Source of the DNA: Candidatus Iainarchaeum sp.
Lineage (GTDB): Archaea > Iainarchaeota > Iainarchaeia > Iainarchaeales > GW2011-AR10
Direction of reading: 5' to 3'
DNA length: 37,603 bases
Assembly: GCA_016198165.1 (NCBI GenBank)
Contig: JACQJF010000057.1
Coordinates: forward strand, 1 to 37,603
Shown: piece after piece, positions 749 through 8,087 of the stretch
How positions within the stretch are numbered: the first letter of the stretch is position 1
Layout of the letters: each line of letters begins with the position of its first letter
Translations under genes and position numbers: made by a program
Notes under the pieces: model-generated
Database searches by the model: none
The model's input: the letters and a program-made list of their open reading frames with translations, nothing else
Told to the model about the DNA's origin: nothing

Positions 749-789
749 ATTGGCTTTAATGAATGGCAGAGGAAGATTTAAATATAATT

Positions 790-812
790 GTCATATAATA
801 TAGTTATATGAC
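790..812. promoter_or_regulatory. 9-bp inverted repeat GTCATATAA-TATAG-TTATATGAC, candidate operator/promoter
   Basis: Perfect inverted repeat with 5-nt spacer, overlapping the ATG at 808 and just before the ATG at 817. Confidence 0.6.
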
Positions 813-1533
813 AACGATGCCTATAGCGTATAAGCTTGATTCAAAGAGCATTGAGATAGCCAAGGCAATTTCAAAGGAAATGCCTCATTTGGTTTTTTCT
901 ATTTGGGATTTGAATGATTTTTTGCCGGCATTTCACAATGTCAGGAAAAACATGTTTTTTATTGAGTGTGAAAACTTGGCCCGCCCTAAAATAATGACTA
1001 TTTTGGCAAGTAAACTCAGGCATAATTTTGTCATTTATAGCGGTGAAAGAAAACCCAAAGCAGTCAGTGAAGAATTGCTTGGTTATGGTCATGGTTCTGG
1101 ATCAGGGCGTGGTTTTGAAGATAGAGCTGGATATGGTTCTATTTTAGGGGATGCCAACGTAATTGTTGTACTTTCAAGAAATTCAAAAGATTTAACCAGA
1201 GAATCTGTTTTATTTAAAGGTTCTTTGGAAAATGTGCGTATTCCGTTTTTGGAAAGGCGGCTTGTGGACTTGATTTCCTACTCTCTTAAAGGGTGGCTTC
1301 CAATTCCATTGGAAGAAGCGATAGCGGCTTTTAAGTGGCATTTTAAAAAAAATCATCTCCGGTTGGAATTGTTGCACAGGTATGCGACCCGAAAATATTT
1401 GGGGTGGTTTTTGGAAATCTTGCTTTACAAGCTTGAAAAATCTGGGGAGTTGGATAAAACCAATTTAGACCCGCGCTATTTGCGTGCTGGCGGGCTGTAT
1501 TTGGGTGCAATTGAGGCAGTGAACAAAAAATGA
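808..1533 (+). CDS. AbiEi-like / DUF6577-like protein, putative partner of the downstream nucleotidyltransferase (alternative start 817)
   Basis: SIWDLNDFLPAFHNVRKNMFFIECE resembles AbiEi/DUF6577-type C-terminal domains; ATGA overlap with the nucleotidyltransferase gene. Confidence 0.55.
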   Translation: MTTMPIAYKLDSKSIEIAKAISKEMPHLVFSIWDLNDFLPAFHNVRKNMFFIECENLARPKIMTILASKLRHNFVIYSGERKPKAVSEELLGYGHGSGSGRGFEDRAGYGSILGDANVIVVLSRNSKDLTRESVLFKGSLENVRIPFLERRLVDLISYSLKGWLPIPLEEAIAAFKWHFKKNHLRLELLHRYATRKYLGWFLEILLYKLEKSGELDKTNLDPRYLRAGGLYLGAIEAVNKK

Positions 1534-2519
1534 ACCAGGAATTTGCAAAACGGCAGGCGCAGGTTTTGGACATTCTTGAAATATTGGCCAAGCAGTCCCG
1601 TTTGCAAAAGCATTTGCTTGTTTTTATTGGTGGAAGCGCAGTGCAATCCAGTATTCCAAAACCACAGCGGTTGTCAATTGATTTGGATCTTTATTATGAT
1701 GGGGAGCCGGAAACACTTTTGTCTGCCCTCAAGCCAGAGTATATTATTGAAAAGAGGCCAGTTAAAAATCAGGACTTGTTTTATTTTTTTGAAGCAACCA
1801 AAGGCAACACTTTGTCAAAAATTGACATTGCCCGTTTTTCTCTTCTTGAAAAAGGAAAACCATTTCAAACAAAAACTATTCAATATCAATCAAAAGATTT
1901 TAGGGCAAACATTGCCACATTTGACTACTTGCTTGCATCAAAGTTTTCCTCGCTTGCCGTTGGCACGGTTGGCAGGAAAAAAGATAAAACTGATTTTCAA
2001 ATGAATTTGCTTAAAGACATGTTTGATGCCCATTGTCTTCTTGAACAAACCAAAACCACGCAAAAAACGTGGGCTTATTTTGAACAGATTGTGAAACTAC
2101 AAAACAGGATTAGGAAAACTGGGCATTCTGTGAAAGAATCCTTGGATAGTGCACTGCAAACTTTAAACGAGTCCATTCAGTCTGCAACTCTTAAGGGAAC
2201 ACTCCAAAACTTTAACCAATATTTACTGGTTGGAAGCGTTTCAAAGCCAGCCTATTGGCAAATGGCTTATCGATTAATGGCATATTTGAATGCTTACAAT
2301 CATAATTCCAAAACCGCTTTCAATTTGTTTTCCAATATTGAAAAAAGAGTCAATCAGGAATATGCAAATCGCGCCATTGTTTCAGAATATGAAAACCAAT
2401 TGCGGCAAAAAGGAATAAATGCAGAGCATTTGCACGAACTAAAGATTCTGTCACCCAAATCGCTCGTTTACCTGTATGCATTTGTTAATCCACAAGCATT
2501 TGACGTGATGGCTAAATGA
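1530..2519 (+). CDS. AbiEii/AbiGii-type nucleotidyltransferase
   Basis: FIGGSAVQ...RLSIDLDLYY nucleotidyltransferase motif (GGS...DxD), then ...FDYLLASKFSSLAVG...DMFDAHCLL typical of the AbiEii family. Confidence 0.8.
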   Translation: MNQEFAKRQAQVLDILEILAKQSRLQKHLLVFIGGSAVQSSIPKPQRLSIDLDLYYDGEPETLLSALKPEYIIEKRPVKNQDLFYFFEATKGNTLSKIDIARFSLLEKGKPFQTKTIQYQSKDFRANIATFDYLLASKFSSLAVGTVGRKKDKTDFQMNLLKDMFDAHCLLEQTKTTQKTWAYFEQIVKLQNRIRKTGHSVKESLDSALQTLNESIQSATLKGTLQNFNQYLLVGSVSKPAYWQMAYRLMAYLNAYNHNSKTAFNLFSNIEKRVNQEYANRAIVSEYENQLRQKGINAEHLHELKILSPKSLVYLYAFVNPQAFDVMAK

Positions 2520-3745
2520 AATGGATATTCAATTTGCTTAAACGCACATTTTCGCCACTGCCTGGCCCTAATTATTTAATCGAGTTCCGGTTTCATGGCT
2601 TTGCCAGAAAATATTTGAAAGAAACGATTTTTGGTTTGTCAAAAAAATTTGGCGTTAAAGGAGTAACCAAAAAAAGAGTTGTTCCTCATGTTACTCTTTT
2701 TGGGCCGTTTAAGACCAAAAATATCAAAGAGGTCGTCAGAAAAATAGAGCGAGTAAGTAGACGATACGATTTGGTTCCTTTTACGTTAAATGGTTTTGGG
2801 CATTTTGAAAATAAGGTGGTTTTTATTAACATTAAACCGTCTGATGAACTCAAAAGCTTGCGCAAAGAACTTGCAAACTTTATTGTTGATTTGACTCAGA
2901 CAAAAGGCCATGATTTTGGCGATAATTTTGATTTTCATGCAACTATTGCTTTTAAGGATATTCAGGCACGGTTTGATGAAATTTGGAAATACTTGCAGAG
3001 CATGGAACAAAAGAGCATTTCTCAGCACTTACTTAGAATCACTATTTTGGAAAATGGAAAAATATTATATGAATACGATTTAATGCAAAGAAAGCTATTG
3101 CCTCGTGCTGAAGCCAAAAATAAGCAAAACTGGAAAAAGACTATTTCAAGTCTCAAGAGTCTACTTCAAAGTGGCAAAAAATGGAACATTCCAGAAATCA
3201 GCGAAACCAGTGATAAAAAAATTTTCTTGATTAGCGACTTGCATTTGGATCATACGAATATTATAAAATATTGCAATAGGCCGTTTGTGTCAGTTGAAGA
3301 AATGAATCAAACAATTGTCAATAATTGGAACAAAACTGTTAATGACGAAGACACGGTTTATTTTCTGGGTGACATGGCTTTTGGAAGAGGAAGCAGAAAA
3401 GCCAGTTATTGGCTAACACAATTAAAAGGTAAAATTGTTTTTATCGAAGGAAATCATGAAGAAATCGGAAAAGTTCCAGCGCGCGAACGCTTAATACTCA
3501 AATACAAAGACAAGGTATTTTTGTTAATTCACGATCCTGCCTTAAAGCCAAAAAACTGGAGTGGCTGGACTATTCATGGCCACAAGCATAATAACGACCT
3601 AAAGGGTCATCCGCTTATCAATCCAAAAAAGAAAACTGTTAACGTGAGTGCTGAGCTTGTCAATTACACGCCAATAGAACTTGATGTACTCCTAACCAAA
3701 GTAGAGTATGCAACTGCAAACAAGCAGGCTATGCAAAAATTATAG
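2516..3745 (+). CDS. fusion of 2H phosphoesterase (LigT/CPD-like) and calcineurin-like metallophosphoesterase
   Basis: N-terminal HVTLFGPF and HATIAF (two HxTx motifs of the 2H superfamily). C-terminal ISDLHLDHTNIIKYCNRPF, YFLGDMAFG, FIEGNHEE, LIHDP, IHGHKHNN (metallophosphoesterase motifs). Confidence 0.85.
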   Translation: MKWIFNLLKRTFSPLPGPNYLIEFRFHGFARKYLKETIFGLSKKFGVKGVTKKRVVPHVTLFGPFKTKNIKEVVRKIERVSRRYDLVPFTLNGFGHFENKVVFINIKPSDELKSLRKELANFIVDLTQTKGHDFGDNFDFHATIAFKDIQARFDEIWKYLQSMEQKSISQHLLRITILENGKILYEYDLMQRKLLPRAEAKNKQNWKKTISSLKSLLQSGKKWNIPEISETSDKKIFLISDLHLDHTNIIKYCNRPFVSVEEMNQTIVNNWNKTVNDEDTVYFLGDMAFGRGSRKASYWLTQLKGKIVFIEGNHEEIGKVPARERLILKYKDKVFLLIHDPALKPKNWSGWTIHGHKHNNDLKGHPLINPKKKTVNVSAELVNYTPIELDVLLTKVEYATANKQAMQKL

Positions 3746-3969
3746 GTCACTTTAATGAAAAAACTATTGCAGAATTAAAAGCCATGCTTGACGAAATCAC
3801 ACTAGATGAAGAAATCATTGAAACAGAAAAAGGAGTAATCCCAGTAGTCCCAATGCTGGTAGCAGAAGTCACTTACCTGGAAATTACAAAGGCAGGCATG
3901 CTTCGCGCACCCGTTTTTGTTCGCTTGCGTAAAGATAAAGAGTCCGTTGAATGTGTGTTTCCAGATTAG
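3727..3969 (+). pseudogene. C-terminal remnant of LigD-type ATP-dependent DNA ligase
   Basis: Reading frame continues upstream of the ATG at 3784: AGYAKIIGHFNEKTIAELKAML...VPMLVAEVTYLEITKAGMLRAPVFVRLRKDKESVECVFPD, matching the end of the ligase OB domain; no ligase catalytic core in the window. Confidence 0.65.
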
Positions 3970-4050
3970 GCTGGAGGTGAATACAAACTTTCCTTTTTCC
4001 AAAAGATACGCTTATTCGTGTTTTAAAAGATTCGTGTTGAACTTTTTTGT

Positions 4051-5631
4051 ATGGCGCTTATAATCAAGAATTTGTCTGTTTCGATTGGGAAGAGGGAGAT
4101 TTTGCTTGATGAGAGCGTGGGGATTGCCGATGGGTCCAAGGTTGGGCTGATTGGGCGAAACGGGGTCGGGAAAACGACGTTTCTAAGGGCGATTCTTGGC
4201 GAAGTGGATTACACAGGCGAGATTGAATTCACGGGCAGGGCAGCACACTTTTCACAGCACATTGACCTTGGCCAGCACAAAACCGTCCGCGAAATCCTCG
4301 GAGAAACCGCCACAATCCACCACCAGGAATCATTTGAAAAAGAACTGCGTGAAATCGAACAGCAGCTCTTGTCTCCGGAAAGCCACCAAAACAACAGCCA
4401 CCACATGAGCAAGCTAACCGAAAAATACGTGGAACTACAGGCAAAAATGAACGAACACCACACACCCCGTCCCCCAAGCAAAATCAAGCAAGTCCTGCGC
4501 ACCCTCGAAATCCAGGAATCATGGCTTGGGCAAACCATTGGCTCGCTCTCCACAGGACAGCGCGCAATCATCGCACTTGCCCAAATCCTTTCATCAGACG
4601 CAGACTTTCTCCTATTAGACGAGCCTACAAACCACCTCGACTTCAAACGCCTCGACATTTTGGAAAAATATTTACGAGAATTCAAGGGAACCGTCCTCAT
4701 GGTCTCCCACGACAGGTACTTTCTGGACAATGTCTGTGACACCATCCTGAAAATGGAAAAAGGAAAATTGCTCAAATACAATTCCAATTACTCCGGTTAT
4801 GTGAAAACGCGCGAAGCCTTATTCGAAGCCCAAAAAACAGCCTATGAACACGAGAACAAGTACATTGCACTCCAAAAAGACAAGATTGCACGCCTAGGCA
4901 AAAGCCCCCAGAAAGTCAAGCAGGGAAAATACAGGCAAAAAATGCTCGAAAAACGAGAAGTAATCGAAAAACCCGACATGGACAAATCGAGTTTCAGGAC
5001 CCACTTTGAAGCCTCCCCCCTTGCCTCCACCGTGGTCCTCGAGCTTTCAGACCTAACAGTGGGTTACACGAAACCACTAATCTCAAACATCGACCTCTAC
5101 GTCGGGGCAGAACAAAGAATCGTCCTAATCGGGGAAAACGGGGTCGGCAAGAGCACGCTTTTCAAAACCATTGAAGGGCGCCTTGAACCCCTTTTTGGAA
5201 AAGTGATTTTGGACAGCCAGGCAAAAATCGGTTACGCCGACCAGGAACTCAAAGACCTGTCAACCCACGCAACCCTCTACGATGAAATATACTCCATGCT
5301 AAAGGACCTGGCAAAGACACGCCAACACTTGTCAATGGTGGGTTTTATCGATGACGACGAGGTATACAAACCGATTTCAAAACTATCCTTTGGCGAAAAA
5401 TCACGCCTCAACCTGTTAAAAATCCTGATAGAAAAGCCAAACCTGTTGCTCCTTGACGAGCCGACAAACCACCTTGACATCGACGCGCGCGAAATAATCG
5501 AAAAAGCATTCCTAAACTACGACGGCGCGATTTTAGCCGTGTCACATGACCGCTATTTCATAAAAAAAATCGCACAACGAATCCTAAAAGTCGACAATGG
5601 AAAAATCAAGGAACTCGCACTGAAAAAATAG
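4051..5631 (+). CDS. ABC-F family ATPase (two ABC domains)
   Basis: Two Walker A motifs (GRNGVGKTT, GENGVGKST), signatures LSTGQR and LSFGEKSR, and twice LLLDEPTNHLD; no transmembrane domain. Confidence 0.93.
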   Translation: MALIIKNLSVSIGKREILLDESVGIADGSKVGLIGRNGVGKTTFLRAILGEVDYTGEIEFTGRAAHFSQHIDLGQHKTVREILGETATIHHQESFEKELREIEQQLLSPESHQNNSHHMSKLTEKYVELQAKMNEHHTPRPPSKIKQVLRTLEIQESWLGQTIGSLSTGQRAIIALAQILSSDADFLLLDEPTNHLDFKRLDILEKYLREFKGTVLMVSHDRYFLDNVCDTILKMEKGKLLKYNSNYSGYVKTREALFEAQKTAYEHENKYIALQKDKIARLGKSPQKVKQGKYRQKMLEKREVIEKPDMDKSSFRTHFEASPLASTVVLELSDLTVGYTKPLISNIDLYVGAEQRIVLIGENGVGKSTLFKTIEGRLEPLFGKVILDSQAKIGYADQELKDLSTHATLYDEIYSMLKDLAKTRQHLSMVGFIDDDEVYKPISKLSFGEKSRLNLLKILIEKPNLLLLDEPTNHLDIDAREIIEKAFLNYDGAILAVSHDRYFIKKIAQRILKVDNGKIKELALKK

Positions 5632-5635
5632 CCCC

Positions 5636-5661
5636 GGGCTTTGATAATCTGTGAAAAGCCC
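5636..5661. terminator. possible hairpin terminator after ABC-F gene
   Basis: GGGCTTT (5636-5642) ... AAAGCCC (5655-5661). Confidence 0.35.
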
Positions 5662-5712
5662 TCCTTGGCGTATTGTGAATGTTTTTGGGCGCCCACGCGC
5701 GTTTTACGCTTT

Positions 5713-6246
5713 TCACTTAAAGAAATTTTTCAGCACAAATCCGAGGTTCGTTGTATAAGTTTCTTCATGGCCCACGTATTCAATCTGCTTTCCTCTCGTT
5801 TCAACCTGTTTTTTGTTTATCCTGAATTTTTTGATGCACGCCTTTATATCTTCTATGTCCCTGTCGTTTAGCCTGCCGATTTTTGTCACAATGATGTCAA
5901 CCGGGCTTAGTGAAAACAGTTCAATGTTTTTGAGCATTGTTTTTATCGGAACACAATGTGCTTCATAATCATTTGGCAATTTCTGTGAAAAAATAAACCC
6001 GTCCGTAAAAAAATCTATTCTAAGGCCATGTGGCGGAAGCCTGTTTAACGCTTTTTTGAATTCTTTTTCATCTTCGTGGCTGAAATCAAAGTCAATGTCT
6101 TTTGTCACGTTTTTTGCGTTCAGCAACGTCAAACCTGTTCCACCTACGCAATTGGCCCTTATTTTTCTGGGCAATACTTTGTCCACTTGTACGAGAAAAT
6201 CCAGGAGTTTTTCCTTGCCGATTGTTTCAGTCTGCATTGTATTCAC
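5713..6246 (-). CDS. DUF6036-like nucleotidyltransferase
   Basis: CVGGTGLTLLNAKNVTKDIDFDF; overlaps the upstream wHTH gene by 20 bp. Confidence 0.65.
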   Translation of the reverse strand: MNTMQTETIGKEKLLDFLVQVDKVLPRKIRANCVGGTGLTLLNAKNVTKDIDFDFSHEDEKEFKKALNRLPPHGLRIDFFTDGFIFSQKLPNDYEAHCVPIKTMLKNIELFSLSPVDIIVTKIGRLNDRDIEDIKACIKKFRINKKQVETRGKQIEYVGHEETYTTNLGFVLKNFFK

Positions 6247-7444
6247 TCATGCGCCGCTTAAAGTCTTCAAAAGAGTAATTTGTTTTAATATTCCACTTTT
6301 GGGATATTCTGTCCTGTTTTTTGTGGGTTTTCATTCCTTCAATTAAAGGCCCCTCGCTTTCTGACTTGAAAAACCCAAGCCATTTCAATGCTTTTTCGAT
6401 TTCACTGGTTTTTCCAATGTTTTTTTCGGGGTTCTGCAGGAGGATTTCTTTGGCGGTCTCAAGCAGATACCCCAACTGGTTTACCTTGTTTTTTCTCCTG
6501 GCTAAAAACAACAATTCCTTGAAATTTATTTTTTTCTCGGTTTCCAGGTTTTTTGATATAATTATTGGAATGGCTTCAAACCACCTGGGCTCTTTTCCCG
6601 AAAGGATTTCCGAAATCAGGTATTCAATTCCAATATTTTTGTTTGAAGGCATTATTTTTTCCCTTGTAATTGTCTTAAACTCAAACTTGTCCAAGAAATA
6701 AATTATTTCTTTTTCAGTTAATTCTAAAGGCGTAATCTCTGGAATTTCATTATGGGTTAAAAACCCAAGCCCAATACTTTCCCAAAATTTTTCACGGCCG
6801 CTAAACGAAAAATGCTCCAAAAATCCTTCCCGAATGGCATTTGCTTGGTTTGAAAAAAGTTTTGAAATAAATTCACTTTCAAGCAAAATCAAAGGGTTTA
6901 TTTTTGCTCCAATTTTTTTTTCTATGTCTTTGTTAGCTTTAAGCATTTCGTATATTAGTTGTTCTAATTCCTGTTTTTTTTCTTCAGCACCCCTTTTCAT
7001 TGCAGTTTTAATTTTTTCGTTTTCACGAATGGCGCCATCTGGGGTGTCATTGAGTATAATTAATAATTCGAAATAGTTTAAGCCCTTGAATTTTTTATAG
7101 TTAATAAATGCAATTGATTGAATGTTTCTTCCTTGGTAATGCGTTTTAATTTTAGCCAATGTTTCTCTTTCTTCGGAATTCAAGTAATTTATTTTTTCAA
7201 GTTCCAGTTGTTCAAGCTTATTCCTTGTTTCCCAAGAAAAATTTAGTCTTGGAACCTTGCTTTTGCCTATGTCGAAAAAACTTATTGTTTTTTCGTTTTT
7301 TAAGTTTTCAAGCTCTTTGTAAACAAGGGCATAATGGGCTTTGACTCCCTGCTTCTTTAACTTTTCACTAATGTGTCTAATAGAATAATTGCTTCCAGGG
7401 TTGCTTGAAATTAAGTTTAAAATTTCAAATAGAAGTCTATTCAT
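6227..7444 (-). CDS. winged-helix protein, putative partner/regulator of the nucleotidyltransferase
   Basis: N-terminal wHTH: LFEILNLISSNPGSNYSIRHISEKLKKQGVKAHYALVYKELENLKNEKTI. Confidence 0.6.
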   Translation of the reverse strand: MNRLLFEILNLISSNPGSNYSIRHISEKLKKQGVKAHYALVYKELENLKNEKTISFFDIGKSKVPRLNFSWETRNKLEQLELEKINYLNSEERETLAKIKTHYQGRNIQSIAFINYKKFKGLNYFELLIILNDTPDGAIRENEKIKTAMKRGAEEKKQELEQLIYEMLKANKDIEKKIGAKINPLILLESEFISKLFSNQANAIREGFLEHFSFSGREKFWESIGLGFLTHNEIPEITPLELTEKEIIYFLDKFEFKTITREKIMPSNKNIGIEYLISEILSGKEPRWFEAIPIIISKNLETEKKINFKELLFLARRKNKVNQLGYLLETAKEILLQNPEKNIGKTSEIEKALKWLGFFKSESEGPLIEGMKTHKKQDRISQKWNIKTNYSFEDFKRRMSEYNAD

Positions 7445-7583
7445 GCAAACACCATTATTATCATCTTTTGTTATAATATTATCACCTTAAGTTATATATA
7501 AGCTTTGTCTACTGGTGGTTGGTGAACTACATATCTGCAAAAATGGATATATTGTAAAATAATGCAAATTTTGAATTTGAATG

Positions 7584-8087
7584 CTATTTCATGAATTTGC
7601 CTGCTATTTTGTTTACCGCTAAATGCACATTTTCTGCGTCTGGAATTTCTGGCAAGCCTTGGCTTTTTCTTACCTGGTTGTATTTTTCGTGGATTTTTTC
7701 TTCAAATTCCTTTGTGTGGAATTTTTTCCTTTTTCTTCTTGCATAGCTTTTGGCAGAAACAATGTGGTCTTGATAATCAATATGCATCAGCTCATGCAGT
7801 AAAACATGCTGGACAACCTGTTTACGCAATTCAGGTGGCTCTATTTTTTGCAGGTTTTGGTTGACTTCAATCTGGAACTTGTTTTCAGATTTTATGGAGC
7901 GCTTTTTGTCTGCTATCCCTTCAAGCAAGAGTTTTGCAGCATCAATATCAGTAAAAGATATTGCCGCGCCTTTCATTCTTCCAAGCAATTTATAAGAAAG
8001 CGGAGCATATGCCCCTTCAATTGCAAGCTTGTCAAGTTTTGGAAAAACTTTCCGGCATTCAAAAAGCCATTCAATAATTTCGCCCAC
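7584..8087 (-). CDS. putative phage-type/SprT-like metallopeptidase
   Basis: HVLLHELMHIDYQDH (HExxH) followed by KKFHTKEFEEKI. Confidence 0.65.
   Translation of the reverse strand: MGEIIEWLFECRKVFPKLDKLAIEGAYAPLSYKLLGRMKGAAISFTDIDAAKLLLEGIADKKRSIKSENKFQIEVNQNLQKIEPPELRKQVVQHVLLHELMHIDYQDHIVSAKSYARRKRKKFHTKEFEEKIHEKYNQVRKSQGLPEIPDAENVHLAVNKIAGKFMK

Follow-up and report, generated by a model that had tools for sequence, protein, structure and literature searches.

A probable AbiE-type toxin-antitoxin pair directly upstream of a probably independent 2H-metallophosphoesterase fusion gene on a shared island in Candidatus Iainarchaeum sp.

Gene content of the locus

The window analysed here, a stretch of 37,603 nucleotides from Candidatus Iainarchaeum sp. 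(contig JACQJF010000057.1), carries on its forward strand three intact ORFs at positions 808-1533 (241 aa), 1530-2519 (329 aa) and 2516-3745 (409 aa). These encode, respectively, an AbiEi-like antitoxin (DUF6577/AbiEi C-terminal domain), an AbiEii-like nucleotidyltransferase and putative toxin, and a fusion protein (2H-MPE) in which a LigT/CPDase-like 2H half (2516-3130) is joined to an aq_1665/COG4186-like metallophosphoesterase half (MPE; 3200-3745). An earlier note, made from the DNA letters alone, had described the ORFs as coupled by ATGA, and both 4-nt overlaps are present, at 1530-1533 between abiEi and abiEii and at 2516-2519 between abiEii and 2H-MPE. The former overlap recurs in two further AbiE loci (L023 and L024) and in genome G003, and the latter occurs only in the source genome (G000) and G003. 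As both junctions are tight, with their ATGA overlaps kept, co-transcription of the three genes is probable. Comparison with the G003 copy shows each of them to be under purifying selection (NG86 dN 0.04-0.06; dS 0.41-0.49). An 84-aa ORF at 494-748 was considered as a further part of the system and rejected, as it has no Pfam match and is missing from the other AbiE loci.

Profile searches with the three proteins agree with the families proposed in that note, with DUF6577 (35 bits), AbiEii (PF08843; 35.5 bits) and, for the 2H half, 2_5_RNA_ligase2 (75.9 bits) and LigT matching above the Pfam cut-offs, and Metallophos_2 matching the MPE half below the cut-off (20.8 bits). PADLOC likewise calls both AbiEi (33 bits) and AbiEii. 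Together with the AbiEii sequence motifs and the same gene order in L023 and L024, these matches confirm the presence of an AbiEi-like and AbiEii pair.

The AbiE-like gene pair and its putative operator

In bacterial AbiEi proteins the N-terminal winged helix is used for autorepression, and the C-terminal domain alone suffices for neutralisation. The C-terminal antitoxin domain is present in the AbiEi-like protein according to both DUF6577 and PADLOC, the matches to which start at profile positions 34 of 204 and 69 of 234, respectively, and no N-terminal winged helix was found from these match starts or in a structure model of moderate confidence. On the strength of the profiles and the model, the protein is read as a reduced, AbiE-like form consisting of the C-terminal domain only. 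The AbiEi-like proteins of L023 and L024 are equally short (224 aa). A structure search with the model gave no significant match (best E 0.23), and no solved relative was found by profile search.

The published AbiEii motifs I and II take the form hG[G/S]x15DhD, with an arginine four residues before the first aspartate (PMC3985639). The AbiEii-like protein incorporates G34 G35-x15-D51-L-D53 with R47, all five residues being invariant in alignment A4, followed by K138/R149 and KDxxD163-166. The candidate residues for motifs III (K...R) and IV (D), namely K138, R149 and D163/D166, are conserved in three sequences, with a spacing unlike the published K173/R180/D192. No solved relative of the protein was found by profile search. 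It represents a divergent AbiEii subfamily: the best other AbiEii proteins of the phylum Candidatus Diapherotrites score about 90-140 bits, whereas it reaches 35 bits. The subfamily occurs in 4/87 genomes of this phylum, as opposed to 44/87 for the wider PF08843 family.

About 25 nt before the abiEi ATG lies a TATA-like box (TTTAAATATAA; 776-786, forward strand), which is read as such on the basis of the established archaeal promoter geometry, and its position suggests a leaderless transcript that would start at or near position 808. On the 3' side of this box, the palindrome TTGTCATATAATATAGTTATATGACAA (788-814) forms a perfect inverted repeat that overlaps the abiEi start codon and takes the form TTGTCATATAA-N3-5-TTATATGACAA. 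When that stretch is shuffled, about 2 % of the shuffles are expected to contain an inverted-repeat arm of at least 9. Across the 87 Candidatus Diapherotrites genomes, the palindrome core has exactly three occurrences, all of which coincide with an abiEi start, whereas a reversed version of the pattern, used as a control, has none. Comparison with the other abiEi genes of the subfamily for which the 5' ends are present (L023 of G009 and L024 of G005) places the palindrome at the same position in both, although the proteins share only 44-50 % identity. The promoter hence incorporates an inverted-repeat operator of the kind found in AbiE systems, and the candidate operator of the earlier note is upheld. 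Its conservation is the strongest positive result of the analysis. Five IMG/VR viral contigs also match the core, none of them beside an AbiE homologue, and these were taken as chance matches.

The 2H-metallophosphoesterase fusion

Two HxT motifs (H58-V-T60 and H141-A-T143), as are characteristic of the 2H superfamily, are found in the 2H half of the fusion. The MPE half contains D241-x-H243, G285-D286, G312-N-H314, H339 and G355-H-x-H358, which together make up the calcineurin-like set of motifs (DxH, GD, GNH, H and GHxH). Despite the sub-cut-off Metallophos_2 match, the assignment of the MPE half is secure, as it has a solved relative (1xm7; E 9e-17) and a fold match in a Foldseek search with a good model of the fusion (mean pLDDT 88). 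In the same search, matches of the 2H half include YjcG, CPDase, Usb1 and LigT. The proposal that the third gene joins two phosphoesterase domains is therefore well founded in the Pfam matches, the solved relative, the fold match and the intact motifs.

Distribution of the triplet and mobility of the island

The search for the 2H-MPE protein covered 93 relatives, a public genome set and the phylum to which locus L028 belongs (279 genomes), and neighbouring genes were assessed with profiles built from the 2H, MPE and AbiE sets, including a broad AbiEii profile. The AbiEi-AbiEii-2H-MPE triplet was found in G000 and G003 alone. In L023 and L024, which are divergent members of the same subfamily, the AbiE pair and its operator are present and the third gene is absent. 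The flanks (about 1-2 kb) of about 50 other AbiEii loci contained neither a 2H nor an MPE gene. Conversely, AbiE genes were not found in the flanks of the 17 fusions from genomes other than G000 and G003, which were read for up to about 5 kb and for less where a contig ended. Similarly, the AbiEii-subfamily profile had no match in twelve whole genomes from other groups that contain 2H/MPE genes, a set in which there was no positive control.

From the abiEi end to 2H-MPE, and then in a SprT-like gene, the island of G003 shares 88-90 % DNA identity with that of the source. The rpoB region was used as the yardstick of divergence, with TruD unusable as it was not found in G001-G003, and its identity between the two genomes is 71 % at the DNA level and 75 % at the protein level. 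As the identity of the island is far above that of the rpoB region, the triplet represents a single linkage event on an island that has been passed between lineages. This is in agreement with the tree, in which the 2H-MPE copy of the same-genus genome G001 is more distant than the copies of G003 or G015. The neighbourhood check for a recurrent triplet thus returned one horizontally shared island, and with AbiE pairs lacking the fusion and 17 fusions lacking AbiE, the earlier proposal of 2H-MPE as a third AbiE component is not supported.

The blastn breakpoints delimit a stretch (3756-7602) that is missing between 2H-MPE and the SprT-like gene in G003. It contains the remnant of a DNA ligase gene as well as an ABC-F gene and a DUF6036 nucleotidyltransferase pair. 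The remnant (3756-3969) is the C-terminal part of an ATP-dependent DNA ligase (PF04679) and lies directly 3' of both the 2H-MPE stop and the G003 breakpoint. On the reverse strand (5713-7444), the DUF6036 nucleotidyltransferase gene (177 aa) overlaps that of a 405-aa protein without a clear family assignment, and the islet may thus hold another nucleotidyltransferase pair besides AbiE. Elsewhere, the AbiE pair of L024 adjoins VirB4-like and other T4SS genes and that of L023 adjoins a protein resembling the C-terminal part of the L024 VirB4-like ATPase, which is in line with mobile DNA. The island contig of G003 also carries a tyrosine-recombinase-like gene (L017:3-674), similar to ones near 2H genes in L012, L049 and L132.

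Endonuclease genes inside archaeal tRNA introns are unusual. The window begins with a tRNA-Asn(GTT) gene (1-380) with two introns, the first of which (about 25-311) holds an ORF (34-312) for a 92-aa HNH protein, and the second (319-343) is 25 nt long and in the usual place. ARAGORN, for which the first six bases (beyond the contig end) were inferred from the acceptor stem, called the tRNA once both introns were removed and found nothing in the unspliced gene.

Genes associated with 2H and MPE genes

Fused 2H-MPE is represented by 19 proteins in alignment A6. Domain arrangements elsewhere include two separate, overlapping 2H and MPE genes in L038, and a Nudix-MPE fusion followed by 2H in L042. 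A single Nudix family (alignment A3, in which identity to the first member is 42-48 %) is encoded beside 2H in L033, L036, L037, L047 and L139, so that 2H and MPE are linked to one another and also to this Nudix family. A limited literature search found no description of a 2H-MPE fusion, or of 2H with both a metallophosphoesterase and Nudix. Relatives of the MPE half occur in 1,199 phage records, which match this half only, and no full-length fusion was found in phage or plasmid records.

The gene upstream of 2H-MPE or 2H is often tightly packed against it, with a 4-nt overlap with an unrelated upstream gene in L012 and small gaps in L011, L028, L126 and L130. As this neighbour differs from locus to locus, tight packing is weak evidence for a partnership. 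LemA, CAP-like and recombinase genes recur near 2H/MPE loci. LemA genes form recurrent arrays with genes for 2H, Nudix or MPE in L042 (3734-6323), L047 (282-2996), L066 (1-1714), L135 (4240-5724) and L049 (3123-5702), with a small ORF of 56-66 aa ahead of LemA in four of the five and a uridine-kinase-like gene also in L047 and L049. CAP/SCP-like genes, recognised by eye and grouped by BLAST, occur near 2H genes in unrelated archaea (L014, L028, L035 and L136).

Pairs of HTH-nucleotidyltransferase (MNT) and HEPN genes, assigned by Pfam, lie beside 2H-MPE in L029 (6210-7199) and L126 (6269-7308) and beside MPE in L137 (5578-6643). The gene orders are MNT-HEPN-2H-MPE in L126, where the gap to 2H-MPE is 2 nt and the HEPN match is below the Pfam cut-off, 2H-MPE followed by MNT-HEPN in L029, and MNT-HEPN-MPE in L137. 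Fic/Doc genes lie near L014 and L040. With between zero and four HEPN matches per genome in 19 of the 20 genomes checked (ten in G112), the three HEPN/MNT adjacencies in about 45 loci, which were noticed post hoc, compare with a rough expectation of about 0.3, a roughly tenfold excess.

Interpretation and alternative explanations

Set beside the observed gene content, motifs, operator conservation, mobility and independent distribution, the locus is probably a mobile two-gene AbiE type IV toxin-antitoxin/abortive-infection pair directly upstream of an independent 2H-MPE gene, both carried on a shared island. The 2H-MPE gene is most likely a separate travelling gene rather than a new third part of AbiE. 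AbiEii would act as a GTP-type nucleotidyltransferase toxin that the AbiEi-like protein holds in check, and the conserved palindrome over the start codon may repress the operon. The 2H half is predicted to act on nucleotides or cleaved RNA and to open their 2',3'-cyclic phosphates, after which the MPE half would take off the remaining phosphate. This two-step clean-up is favoured because of the associations among 2H, MPE and Nudix, and because 2H enzymes have been described as cleaning up RNA with 2',3'-cyclic ends and 2H/Nudix neighbourhoods have been reported from phages (PMC9503650, PMC7824862). 2H-MPE would thus be an accessory gene of wide distribution that comes to lie downstream of a variety of genes, and its ATGA junction with abiEii would have arisen once.

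Against the independence of 2H-MPE stand the two conserved ATGA overlaps and the purifying selection on all three genes, as well as the HEPN/MNT pairs at L029, L126 and L137, in excess of the rough HEPN-density estimate, and the Fic/Doc genes at L014 and L040. These would fit a 2H-MPE that was recruited as a third component to nucleotidyltransferase toxin systems, AbiE here and HEPN/MNT elsewhere, and that resets the system by removing a nucleotide or phosphate put on RNA or protein, or by healing RNA ends left by the toxin. The coupling to abiEii at this locus and the roughly tenfold excess of MNT/HEPN neighbours speak for such recruitment. However, neighbours change among closely related fusions, with no HEPN/MNT seen beside L127 and L130, which are near L126 in the tree. 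Furthermore, linkage to AbiE arose only once, there is no toxin system adjacent to most fusions, islands carry toxin pairs and 2H genes alike, and the statistic is post hoc. We consider this recruitment unlikely, and slightly less likely still the general form in which archaea and some bacteria place 2H-MPE fusions beside AbiE and HEPN/MNT as reset enzymes for nucleotide removal or RNA-end healing. The suggested tie between the fusion and nucleotidyltransferase toxins thus draws slight encouragement from three HEPN/MNT neighbours and is not supported with respect to AbiE.

It is improbable that 2H-MPE is a counter-defence enzyme that degrades nucleotide signals (anti-CBASS-like or 2',5'-oligoadenylate phosphodiesterase-like) on mobile elements which AbiE stabilises. 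Poxvirus cGAMP PDE and RNase L antagonists are among the fold matches of the 2H half, but general cyclic-phosphate and RNA-ligase-like enzymes rank higher in the same search. Recombinase genes near L012, L017, L049 and L132 and the phage relatives of the MPE half would suit such a role, yet the phage and plasmid records hold no full-length fusion and no signal-producing cyclase is tied to 2H-MPE. Finally, 2H, MPE and Nudix could catalyse three successive steps in the clearance of ADP-ribose 1'',2''-cyclic phosphate (Appr>p), a by-product of RNA 2'-phosphotransferase, given that the three activities fit the known pathway order and that 2H/Nudix neighbours recur. The phosphotransferase (PF01885) is, however, absent from 87/87 genomes of the phylum, in which control profiles were positive, and no Nudix of the A3 family was found in G000, G003 or G015, of which G000 and G003 are incomplete. 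This pathway is thereby weakened in the phylum and was rejected, and the explanation is highly improbable here.

With 2H-MPE as an independent gene, the claimed new three-gene defence system is removed. An archaeal AbiE subfamily is defined in which the antitoxin has lost the winged helix and a highly specific putative operator over the start codon has been kept. The widespread 2H-MPE fusion, with its Nudix partner in several lineages, is a good candidate for removing 2',3'-cyclic phosphate ends completely. Should the proximity to HEPN/MNT genes prove meaningful, it would imply a reset enzyme for nucleotidyltransferase toxins.

Comparison with known systems

AbiE has already been reported as enriched in DPANN archaea (PMC12988326). 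With the AbiE type IV toxin-antitoxin systems (AbiEi/COG5340 and AbiEii/DUF1814, with MenAT relatives) the pair shares the antitoxin-toxin order, the bicistronic overlap, the polymerase-beta nucleotidyltransferase motifs with the AbiEii arginine, the palindromic promoter operator and the location on mobile DNA. It differs from these in an antitoxin without a winged helix, a divergent AbiEii subfamily, an operator over the start codon of an apparently leaderless transcript, and the 2H-MPE gene appended in one island. The fusion shares the fold and the two HxT/S motifs of the 2H phosphoesterases (LigT/ThpR, CPDase, YjcG and Usb1), and the sequence, all metal-binding motifs and the fold of the aq_1665/COG4186-like metallophosphoesterases, which are common in phages, and differs from both in that the two domains are fused to one another. 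The 2H/Nudix RNA-end clean-up neighbourhoods of phages similarly combine 2H with Nudix and occasionally with a calcineurin-like phosphoesterase (PMC9503650), whereas the loci described here are cellular and mostly archaeal, encode a 2H-MPE fusion, and have no adjacent RNA ligase or sirtuin gene in view.
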